In this document: positions 5,818 through 25,613 of the stretch, piece after piece
Layout of the letters: each line of letters begins with the position of its first letter
How positions within the stretch are numbered: the first letter of the stretch is position 1
Source of the DNA: a virus
Length of the DNA stretch: 27,578 nucleotides
IMG/VR virus record: IMGVR_UViG_3300008108_000271
Span: 1 to 27,578 of that record
Direction: 5' to 3' (one strand)
Notes under the pieces: generated by a model
Databases searched by the model: none
The model's input: the letters and a program-made list of their open reading frames with translations, nothing else
Told to the model about the DNA's origin: nothing
Program-made: the position numbers and the translations under genes

Positions 5818-6029
5818 AGGTCGCACAGCCCTGACAGGAGCGCCATGCGATCCGTTGCCAGTTCAATGGCTCCCTCAATGCTGTCGCCCTGGAAGGTCAA
5901 CTCAGACCCAGCAGAGTCAATGAGCACCACCGTCCAGAGTGGTGGCTCACCAACTCGCACTAGGCCGTCGTAGTGATAGCCGAGCTGCGCGGCTCGTGTC
6001 TCTAGTTCCGTTAGCGCGACATTGCTCAT
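5814..6029 (-). CDS. hypothetical protein (71 aa)
   Basis: The start is ATG 6029, which has GGAGGA just upstream and overlaps the kinase stop (ATGA). The product is a small alpha/beta protein with an N-terminal helix (LTELETRAAQLGY), a beta hairpin around LWTVVLID and a C-terminal helix (IEGAIELATDRM). No family is recognised. Confidence 0.65.
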   Translation of the reverse strand: MSNVALTELETRAAQLGYHYDGLVRVGEPPLWTVVLIDSAGSELTFQGDSIEGAIELATDRMALLSGLCDL

Positions 6030-6625
6030 GATTCCTCCTCTGGGGATGCCGACCACTTGCCGTTATCCACCATGTACTTCCTGAGGATCGCGTAGGACTT
6101 CTCCGCTGTCAAGTCTGTTGTGTCGATCTGCAGGTCATACTCGGTCTGGAGGTAGCCGTGCTCGGTCACATCTGCTGCCCCTTGGAGCACCCCTCGGCGT
6201 TCGGTCCGAGCCGCTGCGGAGGCGAACACACGCACGATGGTGATGCCTGGGATGTGCTGCCGGAGGAAGTGCGCCTCCAGCGGCAGACGCACATCGTCAA
6301 TGGCGATCGGCCGCCCTAGCGGCTGCAAGCGCTGGAACGCGTCGTGCCACGCCTTGATCCAGAAGTAGGCATCCAGTTCGCGCAGCTGCGCGCCGATGTC
6401 TTGCAGGATCTCGCGGCCTGAGGTCTTGACATCCAAGCCCAGGCGGCGCTGCTCGTAGTGCTTGCTCTTGTCGAAGTCCACGCCATAGGCGAGCGATGCC
6501 ACCTCACGGATGGTCTGCGCGATTGGGAGCACGATGTACCGGCTCTTGCGTCGCTCCTCCAGCATTTCTGCCAGCGTGCTCTTTCCTGACCCCTGTGGTC
6601 CTACGAATGCGATGTGTGCGCTCAC
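6026..6625 (-). CDS. deoxynucleoside monophosphate kinase-like protein
   Basis: This 199-residue P-loop kinase has Walker A GPQGSGKST at residues 9-17. Family-like blocks follow: TSGREILQDIGAQLRELDAYFWI (a helix that contacts the dNMP) and AIDDVRLPLEAHFLR, the Walker B/DVR region typical of phage dNMP kinases such as T4 gp1. An arginine-rich lid lies at AARTERRG. It should phosphorylate dNMPs to dNDPs in the cytoplasm for phage DNA synthesis. T4 gp1 also accepts hydroxymethyl-dCMP, which is relevant given the Mom-like and glycosyltransferase genes. The GTG start at 6625 overlaps TGA (GTGA). Confidence 0.8.
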   Translation of the reverse strand: MSAHIAFVGPQGSGKSTLAEMLEERRKSRYIVLPIAQTIREVASLAYGVDFDKSKHYEQRRLGLDVKTSGREILQDIGAQLRELDAYFWIKAWHDAFQRLQPLGRPIAIDDVRLPLEAHFLRQHIPGITIVRVFASAAARTERRGVLQGAADVTEHGYLQTEYDLQIDTTDLTAEKSYAILRKYMVDNGKWSASPEEES

Positions 6626-7546: not shown

Positions 7547-8233
7547 TTAGAACGGCAGGTCCTCAATGCTCGTCTCGGTGCGCTCAGGCTCACCTGTTGG
7601 TGCCTGCTGCGCGTTGACCCAGGCGATGCTGGGCTTGCGCTGGCAGAAGGTGCCGTTCGACTTGCCGCTGCACGCGTAGAACGCGTTATAGGGCTTGCCA
7701 GCCTTGCTCGTACCGGCAGGCTTGAACGACCAAGCGGTGCGGTGGTCTGGGCATTCGCCCTCCGCGAAGAGCATTGCCGCTGCTACGGCCACATCACTCG
7801 TAGAAACCGAAGGCTGCGAGTGCCTCACAGAATCAACGGAGAGGGGTGCCACAGCCACGCTGTGAGGCGTTGTGGTGCCAGAGGCATATAGTGACCTCCC
7901 CACACCGATCTGTGCAGCGCAGCGACGCAGAGCGTCGGAGGCTGCTGACTTGTATGGCTCGTCATCCTGTGCGCTGTTTGGGTAGCCAAAGTCCTGTCGG
8001 ACGGTGGTCACGCCATCGATCACAGCGATGAGAGTGCCGTGGACCACCTTGGCGGCAGGGTCTGCCACCTTGACCTCAAACTGCCAGCCAGCCAGACCGA
8101 GCACATCGTCAAGGCGCTGAGCTACGGCTCGCGCATCGGCGTAGGTGAAGGTCATGCCGCCGCGCCCTGGGCGCTGCTTTAGGTCTGTGCCGGTAAAGGG
8201 TGCGGCCAGTGCCGCTGCGATTTGCTTACTCAT
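7547..8233 (-). CDS. Rad52-like single-strand annealing protein with zinc knuckle and SSB-like tail
   Basis: This is a 228-residue protein starting at ATG 8233 (GGAGG 8 bases upstream). Residues about 15-118 match the Rad52/Rad22-type annealing fold: a TFTYADARAVAQRLDDVLG helix, the GWQFEVKV strand, and the DEPYKSAASDALRRCAAQIGVG block. A linker follows, then a C-terminal zinc knuckle candidate with C161, H164, C188 and C197. The last residues, TSIEDLPF, resemble the acidic DDDIPF tip of bacterial SSB, which recruits replication partners. It should anneal single strands during recombination with the YqaJ exonuclease encoded just upstream. Confidence 0.75.
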   Translation of the reverse strand: MSKQIAAALAAPFTGTDLKQRPGRGGMTFTYADARAVAQRLDDVLGLAGWQFEVKVADPAAKVVHGTLIAVIDGVTTVRQDFGYPNSAQDDEPYKSAASDALRRCAAQIGVGRSLYASGTTTPHSVAVAPLSVDSVRHSQPSVSTSDVAVAAAMLFAEGECPDHRTAWSFKPAGTSKAGKPYNAFYACSGKSNGTFCQRKPSIAWVNAQQAPTGEPERTETSIEDLPF

Positions 8234-8792
8234 TCTCTGGTCCTCCAATGGTCTCTACAGGTAGCAACTTTGCGGCTACCAGATTTAGTGAACTCGCCTT
8301 TGCAATGTGTCCGCTCTCGAATACGGTTCCCTCCTTCACTTCTGTTGCCAGATACAGATACTGGCTCTTATCCATCACTCCGAGCAGCCACGCGCGCTGG
8401 AATCGTGTAGCGCTGGGTGCGCCATTCCGATCCTCACCGAACGCGAGTTGCAAGTGAACGAATGCGTAATAGTCCACCGTCTGGTGGTCTCGGATGTAGT
8501 CAAAGACGCTCACCTCAACATCGTCGCCAGCCGGTCGGCTCCACGCCTTGGTCTTGACATCGACCTTGAGACCGCAGACTTCGTAGTCGTGCGTCGTGCG
8601 ATTGACTGGCAGGTAGGGCATCTTGCAATCTCGGAGCACTTGCTCAAAGACGGCCTGACCTAGCACGCCAGTCCAGGTCGTGTTGCCTGTCGCCTTCTCC
8701 TTGCGGAACCGCAAGCCGTTGCTGGACTGCGCCTCCAGGAACATCTCCTCTGCGCGGATGATCAGCGCAGGTGTGATCGGTACCTCAATCAC
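8226..8792 (-). CDS. PD-(D/E)XK nuclease-like protein
   Basis: This 188-residue protein has GVLGQAVFEQVL with E50, THDYEV with D69 and KVDVKTKAW with D78 and K80. This fits a restriction-endonuclease-like active site (E...D...DxK). Later residues are beta-rich with a WLLGVMDKSQYLYLA block. The gene lies between the YqaJ exonuclease and the annealing protein and overlaps both (ATGA at its start, 8 bases at its end), so it may be a third member of the recombination module. The exact substrate is unknown. Confidence 0.65.
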   Translation of the reverse strand: MIEVPITPALIIRAEEMFLEAQSSNGLRFRKEKATGNTTWTGVLGQAVFEQVLRDCKMPYLPVNRTTHDYEVCGLKVDVKTKAWSRPAGDDVEVSVFDYIRDHQTVDYYAFVHLQLAFGEDRNGAPSATRFQRAWLLGVMDKSQYLYLATEVKEGTVFESGHIAKASSLNLVAAKLLPVETIGGPENE

Positions 8793-9751
8793 GCGTCACC
8801 GTCCTTGCCGTGAACGCGGAACACGCGCGCACCTGGCTTCTCTGAGGTGAAGCGCTTGATGGCTTCGCTGTAGGTGTCTGGCGCGACGGTGCGGAGGACA
8901 TCCGCGATGCTCTCCCAGTCCACCTTCACGCTGCTCTTGTTCTGCTTCCAAGTGGCAAGCCAGCCGTGACCCTTCACGCCTTCGCCCTCACCGATGGCTT
9001 CCTTGATGGCGATCGCCATCTCCTTGAGTGCAGCATCGGCAGCCTCTGCCTCAGCCTTCGCCTCAATGTAGAGACGCGCGATGTGATCGAGCTGCGGATC
9101 TGCCTTCGCGTAGGTGTTGCTGCTCTGCGGCTTGACCTCCGCGAGTGTGTCGCTGTCGTTTCCGGTCAGCGGCGGTGGAGTTTTGGTCTTGACCAAGTCC
9201 AGGAACGCCACGGCCTTATCGAACAGGAGTGTCTGGTAGATCGGATCAGCCTCAACGCGCTCAATGCGGAAGACCAAGCCAGAGAGCAGCACGGCGACAT
9301 CGCAGTACGACGCGCCTGTGATGAACATCTGCCACTGCACCTGATCTACATACTCAGGTGGCACTGGGTACAACTGCCAGCGGCTGCTCGTTGAGGTCTT
9401 GATCTCTACGAGACCGTCGGTGTCGCCCACGATGGTGCGGTCCAACGATGCCATCGCCCAACTGTGCTCTTTCAACCGCACGATTCCGTTGCTCTTTCGC
9501 AGCTTCTTGCCAGTCTCGGCGGTGTAGTAGTCAGCGACTGCCTGCTCTAGCAACTGCCCACGCTGTGCCGCTGCTCCTACCTGCTGCTCACCGACCTGAC
9601 CAGTCAACTCTGCCCAGAGTCGGTATGCGGTCTTGTACGGCGATGTGCCGTTGATGGCGGTAATGCCGGTGGCGGTGATGCCGCCCTTCCGCATCTCGAA
9701 CCACTCTGGACTGCGCTGTGGCGCAGATACAAATTCGTAGCGCTTGCTCAC
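8789..9751 (-). CDS. YqaJ-type exonuclease (lambda exo-like)
   Basis: This 320-residue protein has the YqaJ viral recombinase signature: RSPEWFEMRKGGITATGI (residues 13-30), a GQLLEQAVADYY helix with E69 or E67, D104 in ASLDRTI, and the catalytic E116-I-K118 in LVEIKTS, followed by YVDQVQWQM (Q137 region). It resects double-strand ends 5' to 3'. A long Ala/Glu-rich helix (about residues 225-265) is a coiled coil. The GTG at 9751 has GGAGG upstream and overlaps the previous TGA (GTGA); the longer ATG form is less likely. Confidence 0.85.
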   Translation of the reverse strand: MSKRYEFVSAPQRSPEWFEMRKGGITATGITAINGTSPYKTAYRLWAELTGQVGEQQVGAAAQRGQLLEQAVADYYTAETGKKLRKSNGIVRLKEHSWAMASLDRTIVGDTDGLVEIKTSTSSRWQLYPVPPEYVDQVQWQMFITGASYCDVAVLLSGLVFRIERVEADPIYQTLLFDKAVAFLDLVKTKTPPPLTGNDSDTLAEVKPQSSNTYAKADPQLDHIARLYIEAKAEAEAADAALKEMAIAIKEAIGEGEGVKGHGWLATWKQNKSSVKVDWESIADVLRTVAPDTYSEAIKRFTSEKPGARVFRVHGKDGDA

Positions 9752-9915
9752 TTGAACACCTCCCATAGGATGACCGCCAGAACCCAGACGATCATCATCA
9801 CGACGGTGAACTCGAAGCGCTCCTGTCGGCGCGACTCGCGCTGGAGCTTCTCGTACTCGCTGCTGAAGTACGGCCGCACGACCATCTTGGGCGTGCTCTT
9901 ACGATTGACTTTCAC
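9748..9915 (-). CDS. small C-terminal-TM membrane protein
   Basis: This is a 55-residue product with a GTG start at 9915, preceded by AGGAGGG. The N-terminal half is strongly basic (KVNRKSTPK, then QRESRRQERF) and the C-terminal 20 residues form one TM helix (VVMMIVWVLAVILWEVF). The predicted topology has a cytoplasmic basic head that could bind nucleic acid or acidic lipid. Function is unknown. Confidence 0.6.
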   Translation of the reverse strand: MKVNRKSTPKMVVRPYFSSEYEKLQRESRRQERFEFTVVMMIVWVLAVILWEVFK

Positions 9916-21708: not shown

Positions 21709-22845
21709 TCAGTTGCAGGCGTAGTACTTGACGGCATCAGCCTGTGCAAGGCCGGTCGCGCCGCGAACCTCAACCTTGTACGACACCAAGCCCAGGTTCC
21801 AAGCGTACTCGCGCGATACGGAGACACTGATGCCACCGACAAGCGCGGTCTTGATCTGACCAAGGTCACCGAACAGGATTGGCTTGGCATTGTCAGCAAT
21901 GTCAGCAATCCCTGAAGCGGTGTAGACAGGCTTGCCAAGGAGGCGATCAACGCCACCCTGACCACCTGGCTGGAAGAGCGGAAGGCTGGACGAAGTGATC
22001 CCAAGGATGGTTCCAAGGGTCGCATCGGACATCAACCAACCAGCCTTCGCGGCGCCGCGATATTGCTGCTTGACCGCGAACTGGAGCTGGACTAGCTCGG
22101 AATATGTAGGCACGAAAGTCGCACCTGTCACACCTGAACCAGCCGCGTTCACGACGGCCGTACCAGCGGCTGCGCCGTGGGCAATAGCAACTTCCTGACC
22201 AGCAGCGTCCGCAATGAACGCAGCGATGTCAAAGGCTGCATCTTCAACCAGCTCCTCGGACACCTGTACGAGGATTTTGTAGCCTGACGGCTGGAGCTGG
22301 AGCGTACCCATGGTTGGGTCACTTTCAACAATCGTTCCACCTTCGCCTGGTGCCGTTGCGGTTCCGAGAGCCGTGGCTCGTGGGAACTTGATCGCGTTGC
22401 CGGTGGCAACACGGATCACATCAACAACATCTGGGTTGATGAAGGGGTTGATCTGGCCTGCAACGACATTCACTCGTGGGAATACCGCAACAGGATCACC
22501 CAGGTTGCTGCTCTTGGTCACATCGCGGTACTCGAACGAGTCCGTGCCGCCAGCAAGACCGATGGCGCGCAGGCGCTCCGAGTCCGTCTTAGCCTTAGGA
22601 GCCGTAGGAGCAACAACAGCGGCGAACTCGGCGCGAGCCTCGTCAGCAGCCTTGCGTGCTTCGGTAGCGTTCTTCTCGGACTTCATCGCCTCAGCCAGCG
22701 AGCCGGCCTCTGCGACGAGCTTCTCGAAGCGCGCCTTGTCTTCGCCCTCTAGGGCGATTCCCTTATCGGCGGCCTCAACGGCAATGCCGCGTGCCTCCGT
22801 CAGGAGGTTCGCTCGCTTGTCAGCGAGATTTGCGAAGTCGGACAT
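21709..22845 (-). CDS. major capsid protein, HK97 fold
   Basis: This 378-residue protein starts at ATG 22845 (AGGAAG 8 bases upstream); an in-frame GTG at 22854 is too close to that site. Residues 1 to about 100 are a charged coiled coil (delta domain) acting as a built-in scaffold and removed by the protease. The rest is HK97-like: VNVVAGQINPFINPDVVDVIRVATG, TLQLQPSGYKILVQVSEELVEDAAFD (E-loop and spine helix region) and GKPVYTASGIADIADNAKPILFGD near the C-terminus. It sits next to the protease and portal. A spacer of about 111 bases upstream allows separate expression. Confidence 0.9.
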   Translation of the reverse strand: MSDFANLADKRANLLTEARGIAVEAADKGIALEGEDKARFEKLVAEAGSLAEAMKSEKNATEARKAADEARAEFAAVVAPTAPKAKTDSERLRAIGLAGGTDSFEYRDVTKSSNLGDPVAVFPRVNVVAGQINPFINPDVVDVIRVATGNAIKFPRATALGTATAPGEGGTIVESDPTMGTLQLQPSGYKILVQVSEELVEDAAFDIAAFIADAAGQEVAIAHGAAAGTAVVNAAGSGVTGATFVPTYSELVQLQFAVKQQYRGAAKAGWLMSDATLGTILGITSSSLPLFQPGGQGGVDRLLGKPVYTASGIADIADNAKPILFGDLGQIKTALVGGISVSVSREYAWNLGLVSYKVEVRGATGLAQADAVKYYACN

Positions 22846-22956
22846 AGTGTCCACTTCCTTTCTCCGCGCATAGGCGGACTATCTTCTTTGCTCTCCTCGG
22901 TGGGTTGCTCTAACGCGGACTCGCCTACTCAGGGCGGTGGGGCGCAGGCACGAGAC
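22846..22956 (-). other. spacer between protease and capsid genes
   Basis: This 111-base gap contains no ORF or clear -35/-10 pair. Distant inverted copies of TAGGCG and CGCCTA (plus-strand 22871-22876 and 22922-22927) could form a weak long-range stem. The capsid ribosome site lies at its downstream end. Confidence 0.4.
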
Positions 22957-24435
22957 CTAGAGTGCGTCACCTTCTGCCGCTTCCAGGGCAAGCATTGCCA
23001 TAGCGACGGATGGGTCAACGACCTTCTCCTGCTTTGGCGCGAGCTTGGAGCGAACAGCATCAATGACAACCACTTCCTCGGCGGACAGTTCGCGTCCAGC
23101 CTTGATTGCTTCAAGTGTGGCGACAAGTGCCTCAGCCTCTACGCCGATCTTTGGCGCAGTGACTTGGCGGATTGCCGTGAGACCAAGGGTTGCAGGGTAG
23201 GCAGGGGTCTGACCACCAGCGGCAAGGATGCTCACCTCGAACAGGTTGGCTTCCTTGATCGTGCGCTGATTGCCATCCCAAGCATCCTGTACCTTCTGGA
23301 AGCCGAACGACATACCGGCAGCGGCGCTCTCATGCGTGAGCATTGAGATGACCTTGGCAGCGTCTGGATCGGCTGGATCTAGTTTCGCCTCAACGCGCAG
23401 ACCAGTCTCGTCCTCGGTCAACTGAAGGCGACCGCTTGCCGTGGTGGCAAGAGCGCGCGTCTCGTCATGACCAAACAAGAAGGAGATGATCTTCTGCCCT
23501 GCGGATGCGCGAGCCAGTGAACGCTTGAAGGCTGCTGGCGCAATGCGCTCCTCGAACGGCAGACCAGCGCTTGCGCTGTTCCAGATCGCGGCGTAGCCAG
23601 TGAAGGTTCGCTGTCCGTCAGCGTCAGCCTCGGCAAGACGGTACTCGCCGATTGGCAGTGAGCGAACTTCTTTCTCTTTCATATCAATGATCTCCCTATC
23701 TTCAGCTGCGATCAAAGCATCTGCCCACGAGAGTACGCGATCAGTTGCGTCGCGGTCAGTTGTTTCCACACCCCAAAGGAAGCCAGCAACAGCGCCTGGA
23801 CCTGGGAAGTCCTCGTTCTCCTGATCCTCATTCTGTGGCACGCCTTCCCAGTCGCCGCGATGACGGCGAATCCATGCGGCCATGCGGATCACCTTGTCGG
23901 TGTCGGCTCGTCCGGCTGCGAGTTCGCGTGCCTCGGAGATCGTCTGCGCCTGCAAGCCATCGCCTGCGCGACCGTCCTCTACGAATGACAAGCCACGAGC
24001 TGCGGCGTTGCGGATGTAGTCAGGAACCTCGTACACGGCGCGCTCTTCGTCGGCGAGATACTCGTCAGGCGAGTACGCCTCGATCATCAAGCCGCGAGCC
24101 ATCTCGCGCACGGCTGCGTCATTGTCAATCGCGTACTCCAACTCCTCACCATACTGCTCCTTGAGCAGACCGTACTTGTACTCCTTGAATGCCAAGCCGG
24201 TGGCGAAGGGTGAGCCGTCAAAGTCGTTGAGGTGTACCTCTTCAACGCCTGCGACCTTGTACTCCTGAAGCCATGCGCGCGTCTCTTCTAGGCGCTCAAT
24301 GCTGCGAGCAGAGACCACGATCAGTTGCTTATCGCCAGTCATGACCTCCTCGTTGAGGAGGTTGATCAGCGGCTGATTCGGCTGCTCATTGTCAAGGATG
24401 AGCGTGCCGTCAAGGTCAACGATGATGTAGCTCAA
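22957..24435 (-). CDS. HAD hydrolase-linker-S78 prohead protease fusion
   Basis: This is a 492-residue protein with a TTG start at 24435, overlapping the portal TGA (TTGA). Residues 1-125 are a HAD phosphatase domain: DLDGT at 7-11, VSARS at 41-45, and a DND motif at 104-106. Residues about 135-245 match a helical domain found before proteases in other phages (AGDGL...ISEARELAAG...DKVIRMAAWIRRH). Residues 258-425 are the S78/HK97 prohead protease with H323 (FGHD), S376 (MSFGF) and E400 (LFEVSI). It processes the capsid delta domain. An internal ATG at 23682 could yield a 241-residue protease alone. The HAD function is unknown. Confidence 0.8.
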   Translation of the reverse strand: MSYIIVDLDGTLILDNEQPNQPLINLLNEEVMTGDKQLIVVSARSIERLEETRAWLQEYKVAGVEEVHLNDFDGSPFATGLAFKEYKYGLLKEQYGEELEYAIDNDAAVREMARGLMIEAYSPDEYLADEERAVYEVPDYIRNAAARGLSFVEDGRAGDGLQAQTISEARELAAGRADTDKVIRMAAWIRRHRGDWEGVPQNEDQENEDFPGPGAVAGFLWGVETTDRDATDRVLSWADALIAAEDREIIDMKEKEVRSLPIGEYRLAEADADGQRTFTGYAAIWNSASAGLPFEERIAPAAFKRSLARASAGQKIISFLFGHDETRALATTASGRLQLTEDETGLRVEAKLDPADPDAAKVISMLTHESAAAGMSFGFQKVQDAWDGNQRTIKEANLFEVSILAAGGQTPAYPATLGLTAIRQVTAPKIGVEAEALVATLEAIKAGRELSAEEVVVIDAVRSKLAPKQEKVVDPSVAMAMLALEAAEGDAL

Positions 24436-25613
24436 GACTGTGAATCCTGACCGACTACGCCGATGTTAAGCGCCTTGTAATGCTCGTCGCCACCGGCCAC
24501 ATCTGCGCGATCCTCAAGACGGCGGATCTCGTTGAGCGATAGGATGCCGTTATTCAGCGCGATGGCGTATGCGTCGTAGCGCTCCTTGGTCGTAGGTCGG
24601 AGCAGGCCGTCAAGAGTGAACTTGATGAAGGTCTGATCGGCACCTGGAACGAGACGCTGCAAGCCAGCCTCTAGGCGCGTGACGAGTGGTCCAAGCCCAA
24701 GGCGCAGCCATTCGATGCTCACGATCTCAACGCTGTTGTACGAGCTGTTGCCGCCTGGGTACTGGAGCAGGTGAAGCGGTACGCCCATCAATCGAGCGAT
24801 GGACTCAACGCCCCAGTGCAGGGTCTCAACCAACTGCATATCGCTGATCTTCATGGACATCTGCTGGAAATCTGCACCACCAGTCAGCACGGCGATCTTG
24901 TGCATCTTCTCGATGCCCTCGTGTCGGCGGCTGAACGAGTTGCGGAGTGAGTCCGCCTGATCCTGCGTCAACTCTCCAGGGATCTTGATCACGGCGGATG
25001 GGGCTGCGCCCTGCTCGTAGAACTTCGCGCTGTAGAGCTGCGTGGCGCTGGCAAGGCCGAGCGTCGTGCGGTGCTGCTCAACAGGCGACGGTGCGCGGAG
25101 CGCCGAGCCAGTGGCGAAGAGTGGGATGTGCAGGATTGCGTCGGCGGTCAACTCCACGCCGACATTGTCATCGCCAGTGACGGTGTAGATCGGTGCGCCG
25201 TCAACGCTCTTGATGGTCACCTTCTGCGGATCAAGTACGCGCATCTCAACGATGTCGCCGTTGCGCCCCTTGATGAACAGAACGAACAGATTGCCGTCAA
25301 TGAGGAGTGACGAAACCATGCGGTGCTTCAAGTCGAAGCCAGTGAAGTTCGGATTGTTTGGCTGTGGCATGGTGAGCCAAGATGGTGACGGTCGGTATGG
25401 GCGGCGAGTGCCGTCAATGCGGATGTAGGTATCCCATGGCAGCGACGCGACAGTGTCGGCGTACAGCTTGACTGCTGCGTAGTAGGCTCCGATTGAGAGT
25501 GCCGTCTGGCTGTTGATTGATACACCGGCAGAAGAAACCGATGGCTGATTGTCGGTGATCCAAGTGCCACCTACGGCACGCTGCTCACCAAGGATGCGGC
25601 GAAGGATGCTCAC
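24432..25613 (-). CDS. portal protein (HK97-type)
   Basis: This 393-residue protein has the HK97 portal signature: YYAAVKLYADTVASLPWDTY near the N-terminus, the SSLLIDGNLFVLFIKGRNGD strand pair, the PSPVEQHRTTLGLASATQLYSAKFYEQGA wing, and LHWGVESIARLMGVPLHLLQY. The GTG start at 25613 overlaps the TGA of the small membrane ORF. It forms the dodecameric ring at the packaging vertex and connects to TerL and the gp6-like adaptor. Confidence 0.9.
   Translation of the reverse strand: MSILRRILGEQRAVGGTWITDNQPSVSSAGVSINSQTALSIGAYYAAVKLYADTVASLPWDTYIRIDGTRRPYRPSPSWLTMPQPNNPNFTGFDLKHRMVSSLLIDGNLFVLFIKGRNGDIVEMRVLDPQKVTIKSVDGAPIYTVTGDDNVGVELTADAILHIPLFATGSALRAPSPVEQHRTTLGLASATQLYSAKFYEQGAAPSAVIKIPGELTQDQADSLRNSFSRRHEGIEKMHKIAVLTGGADFQQMSMKISDMQLVETLHWGVESIARLMGVPLHLLQYPGGNSSYNSVEIVSIEWLRLGLGPLVTRLEAGLQRLVPGADQTFIKFTLDGLLRPTTKERYDAYAIALNNGILSLNEIRRLEDRADVAGGDEHYKALNIGVVGQDSQS

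Follow-up and report, generated by a model that had tools for sequence, protein, structure and literature searches.

A gene that joins a HAD phosphatase domain in frame to a prohead protease was identified in the window, the whole 27,578-nucleotide stretch of viral DNA analyzed here (positions 1 to 27,578 of IMG/VR record IMGVR_UViG_3300008108_000271). Judging from codon comparison across relatives, the gene very probably makes two products, a long form and the protease alone. By the same kind of comparison, several N-terminal modules, the HAD domain among them, are interchangeable. Features are listed in Table 1.

Table 1. Coordinates of the fusion gene, its predicted parts and its neighbors in the window
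Feature	Coordinates	Strand	Remarks
HAD-MID-S78 fusion gene, long form	22957..24435	-	492 aa; TTG start; in ~200 IMG/VR contigs
HAD phosphatase domain	24058..24435	-	aa 1-126; polynucleotide 3'-phosphatase-like; no large cap
MID (name coined here), helical domain	23692..24030	-	aa about 136-248; phrog_2859-like
Peptidase_S78 core	23188..23637	-	triad H323/S376/E400
Internal Shine-Dalgarno-like AGGGAG	23692..23697	-	
Internal start codon ATG	23680..23682	-	Met252
Predicted short form	22957..23682	-	protease alone, 241 aa
TTGA overlap	24432..24435	-	portal stop TGA overlaps long-form start TTG; AGGA upstream at 24445-24448
Portal protein gene	24432..25613	-	upstream neighbor
HK97-type major capsid protein	21709..22854	-	PF05065 at aa 142-378

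The fusion gene sits between the portal and major capsid genes, and a terminase gene also lies upstream. The C-terminal part matches PF04586 Peptidase_S78 over aa 267-416 (E=3.9e-29, 102 bits, cut-off 21) and scores above the curated cut-off of TIGR01543 (84 bits, cut-off 59). With these profile matches, the catalytic His/Ser/Glu and portal and HK97-type capsid genes as neighbors, it is a predicted S78/HK97 prohead protease. The N-terminal stretch of the major capsid protein, read from its sequence, resembles a delta-domain scaffold. The first-pass annotation had described a HAD domain with DLDGT, Ser and DND motifs, linked through a helical domain to an S78 protease with H323, S376 and E400. 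The motifs (D7/D9/T11, S42, D104) and the domain order were confirmed, and these residues and the protease triad were invariant in a first alignment of 23 sequences. The AGGGAG, the 9-base spacer, the ATG and the 241-aa product were found exactly as it described them. HK97-type prohead proteases (PF04586, TIGR01543, phrog_80) share the His/Ser/Glu protease between portal and major capsid genes, and phrog_80 already has N-terminally extended members; the window gene differs in adding an N-terminal HAD phosphatase and a conserved internal start.

Elsewhere the window encodes, all on the minus strand, a Group 1 glycosyltransferase (609-1823), a Mom-like DNA modification protein (1833-2501; PF25680 E 3e-36, phrog_1384), a deoxynucleoside monophosphate kinase-like protein (6026-6625; phrog_139 E 3e-21) and a recombination pair, a Rad52-like annealing protein (7547-8248) and a YqaJ/RecE-like exonuclease (8789-9766). 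The Mom-like protein suggests that the phage DNA is modified, and the kinase-like protein is possibly linked to that modification.

Scans of viral contigs found the fusion in ~200 contigs of uncultivated phages, reaching far beyond the nearest kin; the count is approximate because part of the contigs appear in it under two locus ids, and all statistics use distinct sequences. Every HAD open reading frame that is not cut by a contig end carries the protease in frame, except L215 (3752-4432). In that sequence a stop codon interrupts the HAD domain and the contig ends soon after, so that error and decay look alike. No unfused version was found among the ~200 contigs, and HAD-MID reading frames lacking a protease run off the contig end. 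The fusion is therefore not a chance event. Nor is it credible that assembly or annotation joined two separate genes: the same open frame recurs in ~200 contigs with many linkers, and purifying selection extends across the junction, which leaves an artefact with a negligible probability.

The fusion was absent from the 50,697 named phage records searched, among which the best match was Pontimonas phage phiPsal1, whose protein has no HAD. Searched alone with tblastn, the HAD domain matched mostly annotated polynucleotide kinases. No relative was found in the genome contigs scanned for a host or prophage, and literature searches for a HAD-protease fusion returned no paper on it. Two UniProt entries from uncultured Caudovirales phage, A0A6J5R419 ("Prohead protease") and A0A6J5PW45 ("HAD-like domain containing protein"), known here by name only, match HAD and MID over about 255-260 columns at 53% and 33% identity; the searches found no study of them.

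The HAD domain looks active. Across 113 distinct HAD domains, D7, D9, R44, T52, L56, K84, D104 and R110 are unchanged, position 42 is S or T and position 105 is D or N; superfamily motifs I-IV (DxD, S/T, K and an acidic pair) are all present. dN/dS is 0.116 for HAD, 0.136 for MID and 0.066 for the protease. A degraded HAD domain, named beforehand as the outcome that would count against the first-pass annotation, is ruled out by these key residues, and the active site is intact under purifying selection. Structure prediction gave a confident model of the HAD part (pLDDT about 90) and a mean pLDDT of 89 for HAD plus MID; the first full-length fold was poor in the protease part, and only its HAD part was used. 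The predicted fold is Rossmann-like, and HAD phosphatases head its PDB matches.

By sequence and predicted fold, the domain is closest to the 3'-phosphatase of polynucleotide kinase (PNK). The T4 Pnkp 3'-phosphatase was the best PDB match in one structure search, and Pnkp1 and T4 Pnkp were among the top matches in another. Matches to phrog_415 (polynucleotide kinase) had E=1e-9 for the window and 1e-8 to 1e-11 overall; the match to TIGR01484 (E=9e-4) was under its curated cut-off. Before iteration, the family HMM matched two phage PNKs, one T4-like and one from a Streptomyces phage, in both cases in the phosphatase part. A sequence search of solved structures returned nothing clear with the first alignment; with a wider alignment it returned Pnkp1 (E 0.0017) and a hypothetical protein (E 0.00016). 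The 3'-phosphatase domain of T4 polynucleotide kinase/phosphatase (phrog_415, phrog_505, 5UJ0, 2IA5) is among the closest solved folds, and T4-like PNK phosphatases share with HAD the core, DxDGT, the VSGR/VSAR Arg, T-x-x-W-L, and DD/DN with the following helix. The HAD domain differs from T4 PNK in having no kinase, in being fused to a protease, in an identity of 20-23% and in the loop after motif I, which is absent in an alignment with T4-like PNK. Among the window proteins scanned, neither a PNK kinase nor an RNA ligase was recognized. The loop after motif I binds substrate in T4-like PNK, so the HAD substrate may differ. Because the loop is missing and the cut-off of Pfam HAD_PNKP PF25109 (27.6) was not reached (13.7 bits for the window, 23.4 bits for L209), the domain is called polynucleotide-3'-phosphatase-like, a likeness and not a membership. 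Motifs I and II are separated by a short stretch, which indicates that there is no large cap; HADs without a cap usually have large substrates.

The T4 Pnkp 3'-phosphatase works in the cytosol. The HAD domain might likewise act only in the infected cell, on 3' phosphates of DNA or RNA or on nucleotides, fused to the protease for late co-expression and never packaged, with the internal start securing free protease. The cytosolic site of phage polynucleotide 3'-phosphatases and the nucleotide and DNA enzymes of the window (dNMP-kinase-like, Rad52, YqaJ and Mom-like) agree with this, yet a fusion to a head protease that is kept in ~200 contigs, with no unfused version, would be odd if location were immaterial. 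We regard a purely cytosolic role as possible and less than probable.

To examine the internal start, the codons of 135 distinct genes that have MID and/or HAD ahead of S78 were aligned (362 codon columns). The Met252 column holds ATG in 45 genes, TTG in 40, GTG in 36 and other codons in 14; it is 90% NTG, the most NTG-rich of the 362 columns. Every Leu or Val codon in it is TTG or GTG (76/76); among 90 comparable columns the runner-up reaches 70%, and the background is 22% TTG among Leu codons and 36% GTG among Val codons. On the protease tree, ATG, GTG and TTG interchanged at this column at least 10 times. The 14 genes with no NTG comprise seven with ATG one codon earlier, L077 and six HAD-less genes. 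The HAD lineage L077/L078, which has no start codon at the site, counts against the internal start, as do the six HAD-less genes (6/46).

The residues before the internal start vary by family (DREIID, ERFD, EENS, AEVID, NEGDE, and GEA in phiPsal1 kin), and despite this most families keep a purine-rich, Shine-Dalgarno-like stretch there. The upstream Arg codon is AGG in 73/78 cases (94%), compared with 2.7% elsewhere in these genes. Shine-Dalgarno strength exceeded that of synonymous shuffles, with a combined P of 7e-8 for 28 linkers; these linkers are in part related and not independent. Over 13 clusters, Fisher P was 0.0015; the signal was weak in several clusters, and the region tested missed the start in L201. 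Since the test alone is too weak at the 13-cluster level, the case for the internal start rests mainly on codon identity. Taken at the codon level, the start codon and Shine-Dalgarno stretch are conserved beyond amino-acid need. Read most simply, this means that ribosomes start at the Met252 column and give the protease alone, and the internal start proposed in the first-pass annotation is thus backed by codon-level conservation. The ATG could instead be a relic, left from a time when the protease gene was unfused and began there, with only the long form made today and the protease cutting itself free. Its position does coincide with the beginning of the part common to many phage proteases, whose matches begin at aa 243-272. 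A relic would be expected to drift to other Leu and Val codons, yet the changes at this column run among ATG, GTG and TTG only, with the AGG bias upstream; we consider this explanation improbable.

Internal starts also occur where HAD does not. HAD-less extended proteases (phiPsal1, L082 3809-5263, and its kin L230-L309) have TTG at the same column in 34 of 46 distinct genes. In the six HAD-less genes with no NTG at the column, a GTG lies five codons upstream, and in several of them GGAG precedes it. The start common to these relatives therefore belongs to the N-terminally extended protease and not to HAD. The phiPsal1 prohead protease (MG835450) resembles the window protein in its MID and S78 parts (~32% identity over aa 35-465) and has TGGAGA upstream of its internal TTG; it differs in having two modules in place of HAD, a Cys-rich one with weak likeness to HiPIP and a further small one.

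The long form starts with GTG in 65 distinct relatives, TTG in 37 and ATG in 15, and an NTGA overlap with the portal stop is found in 102 of 117. Shine-Dalgarno strength is alike at the long-form and internal starts. The suggestion that the TTG start would lower the level of the long form does not generalize: a TTG brake is not a conserved feature, and it was rejected as a general explanation.

The N-terminal part behaves as a slot for exchangeable modules. Between the window and L060, dN is 0.62 in HAD and 0.05 in the protease, which indicates that HAD was exchanged alone. The protease tree shows no fewer than four gains or losses of HAD, and in L201 and L209 a related HAD is joined to a distant S78. 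L030 and L186 have an additional Cys-rich module. L058 has DUF3721 (PF12518, E 3.5e-10) inserted at aa 141-177, between HAD and MID, and MID is lost in L118 and L141. Small modules of other kinds, with a stretch that weakly resembles HiPIP, are found in L074 and phiPsal1; the phiPsal1 stretch, related to the four-Cys module, matches HiPIP weakly (E 0.014). More than a hundred related genes preserve the second start signal, which would also yield the protease alone; this suggests that only some protease molecules carry the phosphatase, as an optional passenger that can be swapped.

The four-Cys module (CGNC...C...C) lies between HAD and MID in L030, L053 and L186. MID also occurs in HAD-less head proteins; in Cyanophage S-CBS3 and Roseobacter phages (L226 2465-4975, L224 2483-4933, L227), MID and an S78-like protease are joined to the major capsid protein in one long protein, with possible internal starts there too. 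MID was not concluded to be a dedicated head-targeting domain, because a small solo MID protein is encoded near topoisomerase genes in PaBG.

That unrelated modules fill the same slot, and that MID is found in head proteins with no HAD, would also suit a mainly structural N-terminal part. In that case HAD, Cys-rich and other modules would be interchangeable plugs or spacers, adjusting through MID the dose of protease or its placement, and catalysis would be of secondary importance. The catalytic residues conserved in 113/113 domains and the low dN/dS of HAD argue against this, and we think it unlikely.

The explanation we favor is the one with two starts, and we hold it as a whole to be moderately likely. 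Translation coupled to the portal stop through TTGA would yield HAD-MID-protease, and ribosomes loading at AGGGAG-9nt-ATG would yield the 241-aa protease, which has the normal size of an HK97-type prohead protease. HK97-type proteases assemble inside the procapsid. Both forms could enter it, since both contain the protease, and in such a mixed pool only part would carry N-terminal cargo. HAD, held by MID, would occupy a slot in which related phages swap HAD alleles or carry other modules. We infer that HAD is an active phosphatase without a cap, of the polynucleotide 3'-phosphatase type, and that its targets are probably the ends of nucleic acids; it might work in the procapsid or on entering DNA, after injection, or in the infected cell. 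Packaging of HAD and its release by proteolysis are speculative. A broader proposal is a general cargo system of N-terminally extended prohead proteases, in which the modular slot and internal start load an enzyme, here the polynucleotide-3'-phosphatase-like HAD, on a fraction of the protease molecules; the enzyme would travel with them into the procapsid, be released there by proteolysis and act on packaged or injected DNA. We put this proposal forward tentatively and consider it doubtful.

Nested genes at this locus have precedents. In lambda, C and Nu3 are in-frame nested protease and scaffold genes. The short product is a scaffold in lambda C/Nu3, Mu and PaMx73, whereas here the predicted short product is the protease and the long form adds an enzyme. 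In Mu and PaMx73, an internal start with a Shine-Dalgarno sequence inside the prohead protease gene gives the shorter C-terminal scaffold (PMC4378225).

Few enzymes are packaged with phage DNA, and the route of cargo entry is known in few cases. The start-codon column also offers a clean way to test for internal initiation from sequence, applicable to other prohead proteases with long N-termini. The protease enters every procapsid and is then removed; fusing an enzyme to it, with the ratio set by a second start, would be a simple means of loading cargo.
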